From assembly GCA_021811185.1 (NCBI GenBank), contig JAJZPL010000012.1:1-64000 (forward strand): a stretch of 64,000 nucleotides of DNA, written 5' to 3'. A program made the position numbers and the translations under genes. Below, in pieces: positions 272 through 36,888 of the stretch. Under the pieces are notes generated by a model. That model ran no database searches and had not been told where the DNA came from. It worked only from the letters and a program-made list of their open reading frames with translations. Origin of the DNA: a bacterium (GTDB lineage Bacteria; Elusimicrobiota; Elusimicrobia; Elusimicrobiales; UBA9959). The stretch's first letter is position 1; each line of letters begins with the position of its first letter.

Positions 272-1507
272 ATGACCAAAGATAAGATCAACAAGCTTTT
301 CGCGGCGGAAGAGAGGTCCGGCGAGCAGAAGATGAACCTGGTAAGGCTCGTCTTCATAGCCGTCTTCTTCGCCAACGAGTTCCTGAACCGCTACGCCTTT
401 GGCGTGGTGGACCAGGCCCTGCACGTGCGCGCGGCCTGGACCCTGTTCGTCTGGGAACTATTCGCCGCCGCGGCGTGGCTGGCGGTGAACCGGCTGGGGT
501 TTTACGCCCGCTGGATGAAATACGCCGCCGCCGCCCTGGACGCGGTCTTCCTTACGCTGGTGCTGGTCCTGGTGGAGGGCAACAACGGCCCGCTGATCTC
601 GATGTACTACGTCCTTATCATCCTTTCCGCGATGCGCTACAGCGGCAAGGCCATCCTGGCTTCCGCCGGGCTTTCCGCCGCCGGCTACGCGGTGGTCTGG
701 TACTTCTCTTTCGGCAACCCGCGCCTGAGGCCCATCCCGGTGTACATGGCGGTGCTCACCATGCTGATCATGGCGCTGGTGGGCGTGATCGCCGGCTACG
801 TGGTGCGGAAAATGCGCGGGCTGGTCTTCAGGTTCGCGGAGAACCTGGTGCGCCGGGAGCTGGCCGAGAAAGCGCTGCTGCGCTACGTGTCGCACCAGGT
901 GGCCAGGAAGATCCTGGATTCGCCCGACGGCGGGGAGATCATGCGGGAGGGCAGGCGCACGCACGCGGCTATCCTTATTTCCGACATCCGCGGCTTCACG
1001 CCCATGTCCGAGGAGCTGGGCCCCGAGGAACTGGTGAAGCTGCTTAACGCCTATTTCAGCCGGATGGTGGACGTGGTGTTCCGGCATAACGGCACCCTGG
1101 ATAAATTCGTGGGCGACGCGCTGATCGTGGTCTTCAACGACCCGTTCGAGCAGCCCGACGCGGAAAAGCGCGCCGTGGCCTGCGCGGCCGAGATGCAGGC
1201 CGAGATCGCCGCCTTCAACCTGGCGCAGCAAGCCGCCGGCAAAAGAACGCTGGGCGTGGGCATAGGCGTGCACTGCGGGCCGGTGATAGCGGGCAACGTG
1301 GGCTCGCAGTCCAGGATGGACTACACCGTTATGGGGGAAACCGTGAATTTCACTTCCAGGCTGCAGGGCAGGGCCCCGGCCGGGGCGGTCTACGTTTCGG
1401 CCCAGGCCCGGGAAAGGACGGAAAGGGATTTCAGCTACAAGAGCCTGGGCCCCATGGAGTTCAAAGGCTGCAGCGCCCCCGCCGAGGTTTTCGAACTGGC
1501 GGCGTAA
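272..1507 (+). CDS. Membrane-anchored class III adenylate/guanylate cyclase
   Basis: N-terminal TM helices; catalytic domain motifs SDIRGFTPMSEELGPEELVKLLNAYFSRM, GTLDKFVGDALIVVF, GIGVHCGPVIAGNVGS. Confidence 0.92.
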   Translation: MTKDKINKLFAAEERSGEQKMNLVRLVFIAVFFANEFLNRYAFGVVDQALHVRAAWTLFVWELFAAAAWLAVNRLGFYARWMKYAAAALDAVFLTLVLVLVEGNNGPLISMYYVLIILSAMRYSGKAILASAGLSAAGYAVVWYFSFGNPRLRPIPVYMAVLTMLIMALVGVIAGYVVRKMRGLVFRFAENLVRRELAEKALLRYVSHQVARKILDSPDGGEIMREGRRTHAAILISDIRGFTPMSEELGPEELVKLLNAYFSRMVDVVFRHNGTLDKFVGDALIVVFNDPFEQPDAEKRAVACAAEMQAEIAAFNLAQQAAGKRTLGVGIGVHCGPVIAGNVGSQSRMDYTVMGETVNFTSRLQGRAPAGAVYVSAQARERTERDFSYKSLGPMEFKGCSAPAEVFELAA

Positions 1508-1561
1508 AAAAAGGGGACAGGCTACTTTATTTTTTAAAATAAAGTAGCCTGTCCCCTTTTT
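1508..1561. repeat. REP-like 26-bp-arm palindrome, probable bidirectional terminator
   Basis: AAAAAGGGGACAGGCTACTTTATTTT / AAAATAAAGTAGCCTGTCCCCTTTTT between convergent genes; near-identical copy at 34662-34714. Confidence 0.9.
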
Positions 1562-27697: not shown

Positions 27698-30600
27698 CTA
27701 TTCGCCCGTCGCTCCCAACATTTCGTCCGTAGCCTCGCCGGCGGGCCGCGCCGCGGCGCGGTGGCGGCGGATATGCTCTTTGTCGTCCTTGAAGGCCAGG
27801 TAGTACAGCACCGGCACCGCCACGCGCGACAGCAGCGTGGCCGCTATCTGCCCCGAGATCAGCGAGATGGCCAGCCCCTGGAAGATAGGGTCGAACAGGA
27901 TGACGCCCGCGCCCACGATCACCGCCAGGGCCGTCAGCAGCATGGGCCTGAAGCGCACCACGCCCGCCTCGATCACGGCCTCGCGCAGTTCCATGCCGTC
28001 CCTTACCTTAAGGTTGATGAAGTCCACCAGAATGATGGAATTCCTCACCACGATGCCCGCCGAGGCGATGAAGCCTATCATCGACGTGGCGGTGAAGAAG
28101 GCGTGCATGGCCCAGTGCGCCGGGATGATGCCTATCAGCGCCATCGGGATGGCCGCCATGATCACCAGCGGCGTAATGAAGTCCTCGAACCAGGCCACCA
28201 CCAGGATGTAGATCAGGATCAGCACCATGGCGAAGGCCAGGCCCAGGTCCCGGAACACCTCGTAGGTGATCTGCCATTCGCCGTCCCACTTGATGGCGGT
28301 CTCGGAGGCGTTCACCGGCTGGCGGGTGAAGTACTGGTTTATCTCCACGCCGCGCGCCTTGGCGAGGGCGTCTATTTTGGCTTTAAGGTCGATCACCGCG
28401 TAGACCGGGCTTTCGGTGCCGCCGGAGATGTCCGCCGTAACGTAGGCCACCCGCTGGAGGTTTTTGCGGTAGATGGGCTGGTTCTCCAGGCCGTTCTCGG
28501 TCCGCACGAAGCTGGCCATCGGGATGGCCGTGCCGTTGGGGGAGAAGAATTTTATCTCCTTGAGGGTGGCCAGCTGGCGGCGCTTCTCGGGCGACAGGCG
28601 CAGGCGGATATCCACCGCCTCGTTCTCGTCCTCCACGTGCGCGGAGTCTATGTCCGCGCCGGAAAGCGACATGGCGGCGGTTTGTACTATGTCCGAGGCG
28701 GCCACGCCGTTGAGCGTAGCCTTCTGCCGGTCCACCAGCAGCCGGGTAATGGGCTGGGCGTCGGGGATGTAGGAGTCCACGTCCACGATGCCGTCGGTCT
28801 TTTTAAGCAGGTTCTTTATGTCCTCGGCCAGGGCCCGCTGGTTCGCGGGGTTCGGGTCGAAGACTTCCACCAGCATGGTGGCCATGACGGGTGGGCCGGG
28901 GGGGACTTCGGCCACCTGCAGGCGCGCGCCGTAGCTGTCGGCGATCTTCTTAAGGGGCCCGCGCACCGCCACGGCGATCTCGTGGCTCTGGCGCTTCCGC
29001 TCGCCCTTGTCCGAAAGGTTCACCTGGATATCCGCCTGGTAAGGCTCCTGACGCAGGAAATAGTGGCGCACCAGGCCGTTGAAGTTGTACGGCGCGCTGG
29101 TCCCCGCGTAAACCTGGAGGTCGCGCACTTCCGGCACGGAGGCCAGCTGCGCGGCCATTTCGCGCGAGGCTTTCTCCGTGCGCTCCAGCGACGAGCTCTC
29201 CGGCATGTTGATGATCACCTGGAACTCGTTCTTGTTGTCGAAAGGCAGGGTCTTGAAGATCACCAGCCTGAAACCCACCATCGCCAGGACCAGGGCTAGC
29301 AGGCCGGCGGTGAAGGCCAGGAATTTCTTGCCGTTGGCGGGTTCGTAGATCAGCTTCTTCATCAGGCCGCGGTACAGGCGGTCCAGCAGGCCTTCCTTGT
29401 CGTTCTCGCAATGCTTGAGAGGCCAGCGCTCCACCACCCTGGAGTAAAGCCAGGGAGTGAAGGCGAAAGCCACTCCGAGCGAGAACAGCATGGCCACCGA
29501 GGCGCCTATGGGGATGGGGCGCATGTACGGGCCCATCATGCCGCTGACGAAGGCCATGGGCAGGATGGAGGCGATCACGGTCCAGGTGGCGAGGATGGTG
29601 GGGTTGCCCACCTCGTCCACGGCGTTGAGGATGTTGCGGTACAGGGAGTTCTTGCGGTTCAGCACGCAGTGGCGGTTGATGTTCTCCACCACCACGATGG
29701 CGTCGTCCACCAGGATGCCGATGGAGAAGATCAGCGCGAACAGCGTGATGCGGTTGAGCGTGTAGCCGTAGAGGAAGTACACCAGCATGGTGAGCGCCAG
29801 CGTTACCGGGATGGCTACCAGTACCACGGCGGCTTCGCGCAGGCCCAGCGTGAAGGCGATCAGCAGGGTGACCGACAGGGTGGCCAGCAGCATGTGGTAG
29901 ATCAGCTCGTCGGACTTGGCTTTGGCGGTTTCGCCGTAGTTGCGGGTGACGGTGATGTTGACGCCGTCGGGGATCTCGCGGCCCTTCATGGCCTCCACTT
30001 TGGCCAGCACCGCGCGGGAGACCGCGGTGGCGTTGGCGCCGCGGCGCTTGGCCACGGAGAGGGTTACGGCGGGGCTGGCGCCGGCGGCCTTAACGGAGGA
30101 GGCGGGGCCCTGCAGCATGGTAACGGAGTGTTCGTCCTCATCGGGCCCGTCCGCCACTTCGGCCACTTCGGAGAGTTTTACCGGGAGGCCGTTGTAAACG
30201 CCTACGATGATGTTCTTCAGGTCGGAGGCGGAGTGGATGAAGGCGTCGGTTTCGGCCAGCAGCCTGGTGTCGCCGTTGTTGTAATGCCCGGCGGGCAGGC
30301 TGGCGTTGGACATCTTGACTATGCCGGCGAGCATCTGGGGGGTGAGGCGGTGGCTGGCGAGGGCCGCGGGGTCGAAGTGCACTATGAACTGGCGCTTGTG
30401 GCCGCCTATGATGCGGGTTTCGGAGACGTTGGGAACGGCGTTGAGCTCGGTGCGGATGCGGGCGGCGGCGCGGCGCAGGGCGTAGTCGTCCTGGCCGTTG
30501 CCCCAGAGCGTGAGGGCCAGCACGGGCACGTCGTCTATGGCGCGGAACTTTATCTGGGGCTCGCCGGCGCCGCGGGGGAAGATGTCCTTGTTGTCCAGGG

Positions 30601-30967
30601 TTTTGGTGTAGACCAGGTTGGCGGCGTTCTCGGGGACGGTGCCCACTTTGAAGCGGACGGTGAACATGGCGAAGTTGGGCCGGGCTATGGAGTAGATGTA
30701 CTCTACGCCGGGGATCTCCCAGAGTTTGCGTTCGCCTACTTCCACGACGTGTTTTTCTATCTCCTTCGGTGTGGCGCCGTAGAAGGGGACCATGATGTCG
30801 AACATGGGGACGTTTATCTGGGGTTCTTCTTCGCGCGGGAGTTTTATGGTGGAGAAGACGCCCAGCAGGATGAAGGTGATGATGAGGATGGGCGTGAGGC
30901 GCGAGTTGATGAAGGCCCCGGCCATGCGCCCGGCCATTCCGTATTTTTTATGTGTTTCGTTCTGCAT
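27698..30967 (-). CDS. Efflux RND transporter permease
   Basis: 1089 aa; KLPREEEPQINVPMFDIMVPFYGATPKEIEKHV; IFSIGILVDDAIVVVENI; GIIPAHWAMHAFFTATSMIGFIASAGIVVRNSIILVDF. Confidence 0.95.
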   Translation of the reverse strand: MQNETHKKYGMAGRMAGAFINSRLTPILIITFILLGVFSTIKLPREEEPQINVPMFDIMVPFYGATPKEIEKHVVEVGERKLWEIPGVEYIYSIARPNFAMFTVRFKVGTVPENAANLVYTKTLDNKDIFPRGAGEPQIKFRAIDDVPVLALTLWGNGQDDYALRRAAARIRTELNAVPNVSETRIIGGHKRQFIVHFDPAALASHRLTPQMLAGIVKMSNASLPAGHYNNGDTRLLAETDAFIHSASDLKNIIVGVYNGLPVKLSEVAEVADGPDEDEHSVTMLQGPASSVKAAGASPAVTLSVAKRRGANATAVSRAVLAKVEAMKGREIPDGVNITVTRNYGETAKAKSDELIYHMLLATLSVTLLIAFTLGLREAAVVLVAIPVTLALTMLVYFLYGYTLNRITLFALIFSIGILVDDAIVVVENINRHCVLNRKNSLYRNILNAVDEVGNPTILATWTVIASILPMAFVSGMMGPYMRPIPIGASVAMLFSLGVAFAFTPWLYSRVVERWPLKHCENDKEGLLDRLYRGLMKKLIYEPANGKKFLAFTAGLLALVLAMVGFRLVIFKTLPFDNKNEFQVIINMPESSSLERTEKASREMAAQLASVPEVRDLQVYAGTSAPYNFNGLVRHYFLRQEPYQADIQVNLSDKGERKRQSHEIAVAVRGPLKKIADSYGARLQVAEVPPGPPVMATMLVEVFDPNPANQRALAEDIKNLLKKTDGIVDVDSYIPDAQPITRLLVDRQKATLNGVAASDIVQTAAMSLSGADIDSAHVEDENEAVDIRLRLSPEKRRQLATLKEIKFFSPNGTAIPMASFVRTENGLENQPIYRKNLQRVAYVTADISGGTESPVYAVIDLKAKIDALAKARGVEINQYFTRQPVNASETAIKWDGEWQITYEVFRDLGLAFAMVLILIYILVVAWFEDFITPLVIMAAIPMALIGIIPAHWAMHAFFTATSMIGFIASAGIVVRNSIILVDFINLKVRDGMELREAVIEAGVVRFRPMLLTALAVIVGAGVILFDPIFQGLAISLISGQIAATLLSRVAVPVLYYLAFKDDKEHIRRHRAAARPAGEATDEMLGATGE

Positions 30968-31022
30968 TGTTTTGCTCCTGAATTACTTCGGCTGAATATT
31001 AACCGCGAGACGTGAAGTCGGT

Positions 31023-31152
31023 GCCTGCCGGGGACATGGGCCCGTCGGGCACGCGGTCGCGCACACCGTGCGCGCCGCTCGTCACTCGGCCTCGTCGCTT
31101 ACGCAAGCCTCGGCCTCCGTGACGGCCCGCCGAACCCATGTCCCCGGCAGGC
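31023..31152. repeat. Intergenic element B: TIR-flanked structured element related to element A
   Basis: 18-bp perfect inverted repeats GCCTGCCGGGGACATGGG (31023-31040)/CCCATGTCCCCGGCAGGC (31135-31152); core reverse-complement aligns with 9922-10016. Confidence 0.82.
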
Positions 31153-31176
31153 TCCTCCGCTCGTTAACTTTCTAAA

Positions 31177-32535
31177 CTACTTCCCGGTTCCCAGTTTCTC
31201 CGACATTTCGTTTATGGCCGCGGCGTCCAGGGTTTCGGAGGCCAGCAGGGTCTGGGCGTGGTAAAGGTTAAGTTTATAGAGGGTTTCGTAGTACGCGGCT
31301 TCGGCCTGCAGCACGGAGGCTTTGGCGCGCAGGACTTCCAGCACGCTCTGGCGGCCCTGGCGGTAGAGGGGGACGAAGAGCTCGTACGACTGCCTGGCTT
31401 TGTCCAGGGTTTCTTTGGCTATGGGCAGGCTCTCCACTGCGGCCTGGTAGTTGTTGAGGGCGTCTTCGGTCTCTACTTTGGCCTGTTTGCGGGCTTCGTC
31501 CAGGCGGCTTTGCGCCATGGAGGTTTCGGCCGCGGCCGCGTTCTTCTTGGCGTAGTAGGCGGGGTCGCCCAGCGGCATGGTGAGCCGCAGGCCTACCAGG
31601 CGGTTGGACCTGAAATCCGAAAGGCTTTCCGAGTTGGTTTCCCAGGCCCCGAAAGCTTCCACCACGGGCAGCACGGAATTTTCCTGCATGGCCTGCGAGG
31701 TTTTGGAAATAGCCGCCATTTTTTCAAGGGCTTTCAGGTCGCGCCTGCCGCCGGCGGCGGCCGCGTCCAGTTCGGCGGAGGTTTTGGGCGCGTAGGCTAC
31801 TTCGCGCAGTTCTCCCGCGGGGGCGGGCAGGGCGCCGGGTGGCAGGCCCAGGGTGATGGCCAGCTTTTCATTCTCCAGTTCCAGCGCCTTGCGCCAGTTC
31901 AGGTCGTAGCCCTTGAGCGTGGAGAGGATGGCTTCCGCGCCGTAATAGTCGGAACCCAGCACCATGCCCTTGTCCTTTAGCATCTGCGCGGTCTTGAGTT
32001 CCGCTTCGGCCGACTTCACGCTCTCCGCGGATACTTCGGCGAGTTTCTCGCGCAGCAGCACGGTGAGCCACTGGTAGGCGATCTTGAAGGTGATGCCGGC
32101 GCGGGCCCTTTCATAGCCGTTCTGCGCCGCTTCTACGCCGAGGCCGCCCATTTTTACGGCGTTGCTGACGGCGAACCCGGTAAAAAGCGGTACGCCGGCC
32201 TCTATGCCGCCCATGTAGTTGCGCGCCGGGGAGGGATTATTGATGGTGGCCAGGGAGGCCATGCTGAAGGTGCCCTGTTTCATGGCGGTGGCGAAAGCGT
32301 AGACCGGGTCGGTGCCGTCGGTGTACATGCCTTTAAGCTTGAAGCCCCCCAGCCTGGACATTTTAGCCTGGCTCAGGCCGGCCCTGGCCCCGGTCACCCT
32401 GGCCGCCTCTTCCTTAATTATATTGTCTGATTTGAGCCCCTGTTCCACCGCCGCCCCCAGGGTCAGGGGGCCCGCTTTCGCGGCCGCCGGAATTGCAGTT
32501 AACAGAACCGATATTATTGTTATACTTCTGATCAT
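31177..32535 (-). CDS. TolC family outer membrane efflux protein
   Basis: Signal peptide MIRSITIISVLLTAIPAAAKAGPLTLGAAVEQGL; C-terminal YRQGRQSVLEVLRAKASVLQAEAAYYETLYKLNLYHAQTLLAS. Confidence 0.9.
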   Translation of the reverse strand: MIRSITIISVLLTAIPAAAKAGPLTLGAAVEQGLKSDNIIKEEAARVTGARAGLSQAKMSRLGGFKLKGMYTDGTDPVYAFATAMKQGTFSMASLATINNPSPARNYMGGIEAGVPLFTGFAVSNAVKMGGLGVEAAQNGYERARAGITFKIAYQWLTVLLREKLAEVSAESVKSAEAELKTAQMLKDKGMVLGSDYYGAEAILSTLKGYDLNWRKALELENEKLAITLGLPPGALPAPAGELREVAYAPKTSAELDAAAAGGRRDLKALEKMAAISKTSQAMQENSVLPVVEAFGAWETNSESLSDFRSNRLVGLRLTMPLGDPAYYAKKNAAAAETSMAQSRLDEARKQAKVETEDALNNYQAAVESLPIAKETLDKARQSYELFVPLYRQGRQSVLEVLRAKASVLQAEAAYYETLYKLNLYHAQTLLASETLDAAAINEMSEKLGTGK

Positions 32536-32828
32536 CGAACCCTCCGTCTTTGCTTCTACTAATGAGATGCGCCCGGGGACGAATAGTTTCACCTTTAACG
32601 CATAAAGCGGTGTGAACGGTCATTCTATGAAAGTTTGACAGGCGCGGCGGTGTTTTATTAAATTCCTGAAAAGAGACCCCGGCCATAATTAAAGCAATTT
32701 TAAAGAACGGTTCCTCCGGCGCGTCCCGCGCGGCGCCGCCCCCCGGGGGAAGTGGCAACTTTTACGTCGGAATTGCTATCATATCCGCGTTGCCCCGTTC
32801 CTATTTTGCTTCTTGAGGTGCCGCTTCC

Positions 32829-34661: not shown

Positions 34662-34714
34662 AAAAAAGGGGACAGGCTACTTTATTTTCAATAAAGTAGC
34701 CTGTCCCCTTTTTT
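34662..34714. repeat. REP-like palindrome, second copy, probable bidirectional terminator
   Basis: AAAAAAGGGGACAGGCTACTTTATT-ttc-AATAAAGTAGCCTGTCCCCTTTTTT between convergent genes. Confidence 0.9.
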
Positions 34715-35718
34715 TATTGCTGGTCCGGGCTGGCCGGGGCGTCTTTCATTTTGTCGTATAGAAGCTCGAACTGGGGGGCTATGCGCTTGAAGATCTCCAT
34801 GATCTTGGGGTCGAAGTGCTCGGGTTTCAGCCGGTCGTCGCCCTCGGTCAGAACGCGGACGGCGCCGGCGTGGTCGTAGCAGGGCTTGTAGATGCGGGAA
34901 TTCCTGAGCGCATCGTAGCAGTCGGCCATCGCCACGATCCTGGCCTCCAGCGGAATCTGCTCGCCTTTAAGGCCGGCCGGGTAGCCGCTCCCGTCCCATT
35001 TCTCGTGGTGGCTGAGGGCGATGCGCCTGCCGAACTCCAGGTGGGGGTGGCCGCCTATGATCATCGCGCCGAAAGTGGTGTGCTTCTTCATCTCTTCCAT
35101 CTCGGCGTCGTCCAGGCGGCCGGGTTTCCGGAGGATGTCGGTGTGGATGTGCACCTTGCCCACGTCGTGCAGCGTGGCGTGCAGGCGGATGTTCTCTATA
35201 TATTTTTCCGGCATCCCGAGCTCGCGCGCTATCAGCGCTGAGTATTCGCCCACGCGCAGGATGTGGTTTCCGGTGTCCAGGTCGTTGGCCTCGGCCGCCC
35301 GGGCCAGCGAGCGTATCAAATAGGTGAACGCGTCCTCGTATTCGCGCGAGTTCAGCGTGTTCTTGATGCGCAGCAGGAGTTCCGCCTGGTCGATGGGCTT
35401 GGAGAGGAACTCGTCCGCGCCGGATTCCATGGCTTTCAGCTTGTTCTCGCGCGAGTCCAGCGAGGTTATCATGATGACGGGGATATGTTTCAGTTCGCCG
35501 TCCGCCCGGATGGCGCGGCAGACCTCGTGCCCGTCCATCCCCGGCATCTTCACGTCCAGCAGCACCAGGTCTATGTTCTTCTTCGAAAGCAGGTCCAGCG
35601 CCTCTTTGCCGTTAAGCGCGGTAAAGACCTCGTACCCGTGCGGCTGCAGCAGCGTTTCAAGCAGGTCCAGCGTAAAGTCTTCGTCATCCACGCAAAGTAT
35701 CCGGCGCGCTCTTTCCAT
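34714..35718 (-). CDS. Response regulator with HD-GYP domain (RpfG-like phosphodiesterase)
   Basis: REC motif VLLDVKMPGMDGHEV; HATLHDVGKVHI; HHEKWDGSGYPAGLKGEQIPLEARIVAMADCYDAL. Confidence 0.96.
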   Translation of the reverse strand: MERARRILCVDDEDFTLDLLETLLQPHGYEVFTALNGKEALDLLSKKNIDLVLLDVKMPGMDGHEVCRAIRADGELKHIPVIMITSLDSRENKLKAMESGADEFLSKPIDQAELLLRIKNTLNSREYEDAFTYLIRSLARAAEANDLDTGNHILRVGEYSALIARELGMPEKYIENIRLHATLHDVGKVHIHTDILRKPGRLDDAEMEEMKKHTTFGAMIIGGHPHLEFGRRIALSHHEKWDGSGYPAGLKGEQIPLEARIVAMADCYDALRNSRIYKPCYDHAGAVRVLTEGDDRLKPEHFDPKIMEIFKRIAPQFELLYDKMKDAPASPDQQ

Positions 35719-35739
35719 AAACCTGATTCTAGCAAACTA

Positions 35740-36879
35740 GGGGACGCTGCTTACTATCTTCCTAATTTTACCGGAGGCAATTTTTGTTCCAACTGCGGCA
35801 AAAACACTGAAAAATCAAAAAAATACCCCGACACTACGCTGTCGGGATGGTCTGCTATGCTATTTTAGAAGAAAAAGGGGGGGAGTATGCCAAGACAAGC
35901 GAGAATAGATGTGCCGGGCCAGCTGTATCATGTAATGTCGCGCGGAATAGAGCGCCGGCGCATTTTTATGGACGAAGGGGATTATGCCGATTTTAAGGGG
36001 CGTATAGCCTTATGGCTGAATAGGTCCGGCGGGAAATGCCTGGCCTGGTGCCTGATGCCTAACCATTTTCATTTTCTGGTACTGCGGGGCGCGCTGCCGC
36101 TTTCTGAAATGATGCACCATGTAATGACCGGTTACGCGGTAAATTTTAACCTAAGGCATCGCCGCGCCGGGCACGTGTTCCAGAACAGGTACAAAGCGAT
36201 AATCTGCGACCTGGAGGAATATTTGCTGGAGCTGGTGCCTTACATACACCTTAATCCTTTGCGCGCCAGGCTGGTCAAGGCCCTCGCCGGGCTTGATAAA
36301 TATAAATGGTGCGGACATGCCGCTGTGGTCGCCGATGTCGCGGATGGGCTCCTGGACAGGAAAGAACTCCTTTCCCGCCTGGGCGACGGGGAGCGGAGTG
36401 CAGTGGAAAAATATATCCGGGGAATGGCGGAGAAAGCGCGGAATGCGGGGCGTGACCTTTCCGGCGGCGGTTTGTCGCGCAGTTTCGGCGGGGAGCGAAC
36501 CGTACTTAAGGAGTTCCGGGTCCGGGATCGATTGCGTTCCGATCAGCGTATCCTCGGGGGAAGCGATTTTGTGGAAGCTGTGCTGAAAACCGCCGGGGAA
36601 AGCATGGGAAAAGACACGAAAAGCCGGTCGGAAGTGCTGGGCGAAGTGGAAAGCATGACCGGAATTACAAAGGAGGACATCTTCAGGCGCACGCGTGAGC
36701 GAGGCCCGGCGCATGCGCGCGCGGTATACTGCTATCTGTGCACAAAGGATGCCGGGATCAGCGGCAGTGAGTTGATGCGGGAACTGGGACTGAGTTCGGG
36801 CGGGGTTTCAAAGCTGGTGGCAAAAGGAAGGGTTCTTGTGGAAGAGTCGGGAAATAGTAAGATAGTAAGCAGCGTCCCC
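35740..36879. mobile_element. RAYT-containing element bounded by 21-bp perfect inverted repeats
   Basis: GGGGACGCTGCTTACTATCTT (35740-35760) / AAGATAGTAAGCAGCGTCCCC (36859-36879) bracketing a Y1 transposase gene. Confidence 0.85.
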
Positions 36880-36888
36880 TTAAATTGA
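35887..36888 (+). CDS. REP-associated tyrosine transposase (Y1 HuH family)
   Basis: MPRQARIDVPGQLYHVMSRGIERRRIFMDEGDYADF; CLMPNHFHFLVLRGALPLSEMMHHVMTGYAVNFNLRHRRAGHVFQNRYKAIICD; HLNPLRARLV. Confidence 0.95.
   Translation: MPRQARIDVPGQLYHVMSRGIERRRIFMDEGDYADFKGRIALWLNRSGGKCLAWCLMPNHFHFLVLRGALPLSEMMHHVMTGYAVNFNLRHRRAGHVFQNRYKAIICDLEEYLLELVPYIHLNPLRARLVKALAGLDKYKWCGHAAVVADVADGLLDRKELLSRLGDGERSAVEKYIRGMAEKARNAGRDLSGGGLSRSFGGERTVLKEFRVRDRLRSDQRILGGSDFVEAVLKTAGESMGKDTKSRSEVLGEVESMTGITKEDIFRRTRERGPAHARAVYCYLCTKDAGISGSELMRELGLSSGGVSKLVAKGRVLVEESGNSKIVSSVPLN

Follow-up and report, generated by a model that had tools for sequence, protein, structure and literature searches.

A branched-hairpin repeat of an Elusimicrobia genus whose arms differ from copy to copy and still pair

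Among the described systems closest to the repeat considered here, REPs and REPINs (or BIMEs) are short intergenic palindromes present in many copies, lying after genes in tandem or convergent gaps, and inverted doublets and compensatory changes have been described for them (PMC3733652; PMC3116915). ERIC, RUP, NEMIS and YPAL are imperfect palindromes of ~100–170 bp that are intergenic and encode no protein, and whose sites may be filled in one relative and empty in another (PMC2229807), and the inverted repeats of Y1 transposases known as TIRtrons carry a GGGGWSAS motif (PMC3733652). Template switching, finally, is a published route to two-sided changes and has been proposed both to create hairpins and to maintain them (PMC8794818).

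How do long stems keep both of their sides matched? The question is an old one, and the family that we describe is a good natural case. Two of its copies, elements A and B, lie in a 64,000-nucleotide stretch of DNA from an elusimicrobial draft genome (the window; its features are collected in Table 1). Our reading, to which we give a probability of roughly 0.6, is that both elements represent a non-coding intergenic repeat, dispersed in the genome and of REP/ERIC/MITE type, that would be spread in trans by a candidate enzyme reading the folded single strand.

Table 1. Element B, its parts and its neighbors in the window
Feature	Coordinates	Strand	Details
Element A, second family copy in the window	9907..10031	+	15-bp arms GGCCAGGGGGACCGG/CCGGTCCCCCTGGCC; no tail; covariance model 120 bits
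RND efflux transporter gene (ACR_tran)	27698..30967	-	starts ~53 bp after element B
Element B 3' tail, common to about half of own-genome copies	31003..31022	-	ACCGACTTCACGTCTCGCGG on minus strand
Element B (branched-hairpin repeat; B subtype, core member of the family)	31020..31155	-	covariance model match 31027-31148 minus, 102 bits
Element B 3' arm, folding orientation	31023..31040	-	CCCATGTCCCCGGCAGGC on minus strand
Helix 3 hairpin of element B	31054..31078	-	GCGCGCACGGTGTGCGCGAC, conserved ACGGTGT apex
Helix 2 hairpin of element B	31088..31115	-	GGCCGAGGCTTGCGTAAGCGACGAGGCC, conserved inner GCTT-RCGY-AAGC
Element B 5' arm, folding orientation	31135..31152	-	GCCTGCCGGGGACATGGG on minus strand
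Outer membrane efflux protein gene (OEP)	31177..32592	-	ends ~22 bp before element B
Y1 tyrosine transposase (RAYT/TIRYT-like)	35887..36888	+	own inverted repeats 35739-35767 and 36852-36880

An earlier note on this DNA had taken element B to be bounded by perfect 18-bp arms and to be a relative of element A in the opposite orientation, and both points hold: the arms are where Table 1 places them, and the core of element B (~130 bases in all, non-coding), once reverse-complemented, matches element A at 78% identity with an E value of 2.4e-6 in a search of its own genome, so that the resemblance is not a chance likeness of GC-rich DNA. Compared with 200 dinucleotide shuffles, the minus strand has a z score of -9.4 folded as RNA and -9.2 folded as DNA. 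Both strands fold far below the shuffles, the minus strand being the better of the two (-105.2 vs. -97.2 kcal/mol as RNA), and DNA folding puts the strands in the same order.

BLAST searches with A and B find at least 62 copies in the 3.09-Mb draft genome itself, and a covariance model (R1) finds the family in 32 of 32 genomes of the genus, the count per genome running from 9 to more than 60. The same model gave one weak match among five genomes from other genera of the family and nothing in 24 of 24 genomes from another family of the order; as far as tested, then, the repeat is restricted to one Elusimicrobia genus and perhaps a sister genus. Rfam gave no match for ten loci with E allowed up to 1 and none at the gathering score in the window, viral contigs held no match to the element (carriage by phage is not supported), and a literature search of incomplete coverage found no paper on such a repeat in Elusimicrobia.

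The unit is ~110–140 bases long, intergenic, non-coding and GC-rich. Aligning 50 intact own-genome copies reveals a common fold made up of a variable outer arm of ~12–25 bp, an inner stem (in folding orientation, GTTAGCAAAAC...GTTTTGCGTT in A-type copies and TTCGGCGGGC...GCCCGACGGG in B-type ones), a short stem, a helix 2 whose inner hairpin, GCTT-RCGY-AAGC, is conserved and a helix 3 that keeps ACGGTGT at its apex. A 3' tail similar to CGACTTCACATCTCGCGG is present in addition in about half of the own-genome copies, B among them and A not. The arms pair within each copy and differ between copies, tail-type copies having more in common. GGGGAC, which had been supposed to be the shared part of the arms, is not: many copies read GGGTATGGG, GGGGGCCGG, TGCTGACCGG and the like. 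The variants of helices 2 and 3 occur in every combination (GGCTCCGG with GGCC or GGGC, GGCCCGAG with GGCC or GGGC), and the copies are therefore mosaics. Insertion into larger palindromes was considered and rejected, as pairing beyond the tail, in the flanks of 27 copies of tail type, is no better than with shuffled partners (p 0.34). In several copies, L063 (G000:C58:25549), L017 (C65:2471), L016 (C66:2243) and L075 (C77:37659), a second small palindrome, GTGGAGCGCAGCGACAC with the tail TTTCTTG, interrupts the element at one place, a REP-like repeat nested within it.

The arms had been read earlier as a covariation pattern around a conserved core. That pairing is kept while arm sequence varies stands; that the core is simply conserved does not, because the inner hairpins also covary. 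RNAalifold recovered only a partial structure from the raw alignment, at the mosaic helices, so a structure of 39 pairs was set by hand from the folds of individual copies and then tested. Within the 50 own-genome copies, 28 of the 39 pairs show two-sided change and the covariation score is 0.312 (0.107 shuffled), a value reached by none of 500 shuffles, while slid structures score at most 0.09. Among 132 genus-wide copies two-sided change extends to 35 of the 39 pairs, the score rises to 0.545 (0.139 shuffled) and 93.0% of cells are paired overall, in an alignment that was fitted to the model and so leans towards it; in that same model-fitted alignment, the 13 arm pairs hold 98.6% standard pairs and use all four Watson-Crick types, so that the arms of additional copies do pair. 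Shuffles ignore relatedness, and we therefore wrote a tree-based null in which the substitutions inferred along every branch of the tree are replayed at random columns. By this null, 23 of the 39 structure pairs are significant at E<0.05, and the 28 significant pairs out of all 7140 column pairs include those 23, with 27 lying within one position of a structure pair. The covariation test proposed for the arms thus comes out very strongly. Pairing is not absolute: in some same-site comparisons (L296 vs. L281), the arms have ceased to match.

The departures from standard pairing tell the strands apart. At paired columns we counted 309 G.A, 1 C.T, 101 G.T and 21 A.C cells (cells that are not independent, given shared ancestry), and conservation of the opposite strand's fold would have shown itself as C.T and A.C; it is therefore the fold of one strand that is conserved, a fold that contains tandem G.A pairs. 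Relative to GC skew, no strand bias appears overall (102 of 215), and a strongly skewed subset (21 of 63), having been chosen post hoc, is left unused. Covariation so strong and so strand-specific, tandem G.A pairs included, is what one might see in a functional structured RNA (an mRNA 3'-end stabilizer, an attenuator or a small RNA) that ordinary compensatory selection maintains at numerous loci. Strong covariation alone is no proof of a conserved regulatory RNA, and we think such an RNA unlikely here.

One reason lies in the tempo of change. We read eleven same-site pairs from two genomes that are ~95% alike, G002 and G011, on the model alignment: 333 base pairs are unchanged, 42 have changed on both sides and still pair, 5 have changed on both sides with a mismatch and 22 have changed on one side (9 still paired, 13 with a mismatch before or after). 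At ~5% divergence, independent point mutation would strongly favor one-sided changes, so 42 two-sided against 22 one-sided ones implies concerted change, too fast for the stepwise compensation on which a structured RNA would depend. Individual sites show, moreover, that the change comes in blocks: at L307/L305, ten pairs have changed on both sides with the flanks and much of the core unchanged; at L268/L100, most of the core has been exchanged between unchanged outer arms; and at L296/L281, one arm has changed without the other. Where might a new arm come from? The new arm of G011 at L307/L305 has no other occurrence in that genome at up to 3 mismatches, and the idea that gene conversion had brought the L305 arm in from another copy bearing it was rejected, since neither G011 nor G002 holds that arm a second time.

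Simultaneous multi-base changes on both sides of one stem, ten pairs at once and with no donor copy in sight, would also follow if template switching between the arms during replication rewrote one arm from the other, in which case the arm covariation would be mainly mutational and owe nothing to structural selection; the proposal that template switching creates and maintains hairpins (PMC8794818) speaks for this as well. We regard it as possible, if improbable, as a full account. Template switching alone leaves unexplained the conserved mismatches and loops and the bias toward G.A and not C.T, and it homogenizes arms and would not bring a large number of new bases into one arm in a single step; a different member of the family taking a copy's place may be another source of block change. 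Covariation need not mean slow compensatory selection, and the mostly simultaneous two-sided changes at shared sites suggest replacement, conversion or template switching joined to a strand-specific structural filter. Under our preferred reading of a repeat spread in trans, arm and hairpin sequences would be replaced in concert (by replacement of the element, conversion between copies or template switching in the hairpin), arm spelling would drift as a result and copies unable to fold would be lost or would stop spreading. Because it supplies more than a thousand examples of a single fold within one genus, with arms that are spelled differently and many sites that can be compared, the family lets selection, copy conversion and template switching be told apart by ordinary strain sequencing.

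Copies come and go at orthologous sites, and presence or absence of this kind, the mark of a MITE, is found both in the OEP-RND gap of 24 species and at a second site (L271 vs. L112). In 12 of the 24 orthologues, the OEP-RND gap is 4–31 bp long and has no element; elsewhere the element lies in it in sense orientation (G000, G031 and G015) or antisense (G016 and G005), and G020, G014 and G012 have a different GC-rich hairpin instead. Both orientations at one site, with half of the orthologous gaps empty, tell against the structured RNA. The different hairpin in three species (L238, L239 and L252) belongs to a family of its own, with a GGAAACCGCGCAACGGTTTCC core and long arms. At L256/L257, in the same gap, the sense element of G015 has behind it a remnant right arm that resembles the one of the antisense copy in G005, an arrangement suggesting that the core was inverted between paired arms.

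At the second site, a 128-bp unit in G011 is absent from G002, the surroundings being almost identical. The empty junction reads GCGCTGG^CGGCTCC in G002, and G011 has the same right half-arm, CGGCTCC, with its complement GGAGCCG as left half-arm. Comparisons below ~90% identity are too diverged for the ends to be placed. This is the one clean filled/empty pair; it shows an imperfect 4–5 base repeat (GCTGG/GCTGA) and no clean target duplication, and deletion is possible. Because CGGCTCC is already there in the empty site whereas GGAGCCG is new, one might imagine that the outer arms are not passed on with the element but are formed, or formed anew, wherever it lands, one half coming from the target itself and the other copied from it as a reverse complement; insertion would then produce a perfectly paired stem peculiar to its site. 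Drawn from one filled/empty pair, the idea strikes us as improbable. At two gene ends (L273/L293 and L313/L335), one of the genomes G002 and G011 has the element where the other has an unrelated REP hairpin, as though hairpins of any kind would serve, which is a point in favor of a structured RNA. The REP hairpin, GGGGTCAGGTCTTGCATTT...AAATGCAAGACCTGACCCC, stands at L293 and L335, two unrelated gene ends where the close relative has the element.

Placement was scored on 243 copies with a crude codon-usage gene caller. Gaps holding copies are tandem in 128 cases, convergent in 45 and divergent in 7, as against 302, 41 and 56 among element-free gaps, and the median distance from copy to gene 3' end is 28 bp; placement after genes and avoidance of divergent gaps have Fisher p values of 1e-4 and 1e-5 (with the crude caller), and both agree with an RNA acting at the ends of messages. 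Orientation to tandem genes, however, is random (57 sense, 71 antisense, p 0.25), which such an RNA does not predict. If a repeat spread in trans is the better reading, what the candidate enzyme would recognize in folded form is most likely single-stranded DNA, a preference over mRNA that we draw solely from this random orientation.

Neighboring copies within 1.5 kb of each other are nearly always head to head (37 divergent, 1 convergent, 0 tandem), across gaps of 96–199 bp (25 pairs) or 546–1375 bp (12 pairs), and the longer gaps enclose one or two small genes. Sites of the attC type likewise conserve fold over sequence. Divergent pairs that bracket small genes, with gene content that differs between close species (in case B and at L300/L336), might thus recall attC-like recombination sites, at which the genes would be exchangeable cassettes and an integrase would read the folded single strand; this we find very hard to credit. 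No IntI lies above the family cut-off, attC needs AAC...GTT whereas the element has the opposite box order, GTT...AAC, the copies are not arrayed but mostly solo or in 100–200 bp doublets, and some of the enclosed genes look ordinary. The small accessory genes between head-to-head elements that differ between close species at one and the same site, in L215 vs. L291 and L300 vs. L336, resemble exchangeable cargo.

What, then, might move the element? The earlier note had pointed to the RAYT at 35.9 kb, and a REPIN-like element mobilized by such a Y1 transposase would suit the nearness of this one (5 kb away), the presence of at least one in 27 of the 32 genus genomes and the REPIN-like doublets. 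We found no link. Five genomes with 29–56 copies have no Y1_Tnp (that draft state hides a transposase in all five is unlikely), copy number and the count of Y1 transposases show no positive correlation (Spearman -0.28, p 0.13), the RAYT in the window has different inverted repeats of its own and element ends bear no GTAG or CGTC tag. We accordingly rate mobilization by RAYTs as quite improbable; the transposase at 35887-36888 is an unlikely mobilizer, and mobilization in the past may have occurred. A search that covered Y1_Tnp and integron integrase found no mobilizing enzyme. The inverted repeats flanking this transposase are 29 bases long and start AGGGGACGCTGCTTACTATCTTCC, and its C-terminal part has a weak DnaA_C-like helix-turn-helix match under the curated cut-off.

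Set beside the known systems, the element is REP/ERIC/MITE-like in behavior and a member of neither REP nor ERIC (ERIC, a 127-bp enterobacterial repeat, being compared by description). It shares with REPs and REPINs all the habits listed at the outset, but those are simple hairpins of 20–40 bases and it is a branched fold of 110–140; the GTAG/CGTC end tag is absent (arms and core of 60 copies), and REPs and REPINs go with a RAYT, whereas the element shows no RAYT dependence and is confined to one genus. With ERIC and the MITE-like RUP, NEMIS and YPAL it has in common size, intergenic site, palindromy, lack of a protein and empty/filled sites; those repeats have a shared TIR, but its arms differ at nearly every site, and it is GC-rich, without an Rfam match, TA ends or a clear target duplication among the features seen. 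As in TIRtrons, inverted repeats containing GGGGAC occur in the window at 1505-1561, at 34662-34716 and around the RAYT, and GGGGAC is found in some element arms; these window repeats, however, are simple hairpins without the element's conserved core, and GGGGAC is missing from many element arms.

Two minor observations may be added. The hairpins at window 1505-1561 and 34662-34716 are near-perfect, GGGGACAGGCTACTTTATT...AATAAAGTAGCCTGTCCCC, and at L308/L309 the element sits between both arms of a hairpin of this type. At window 62726-63977, at least eight in-register repeats of 144–147 bases bring to mind a repeat protein of the kelch or propeller kind.
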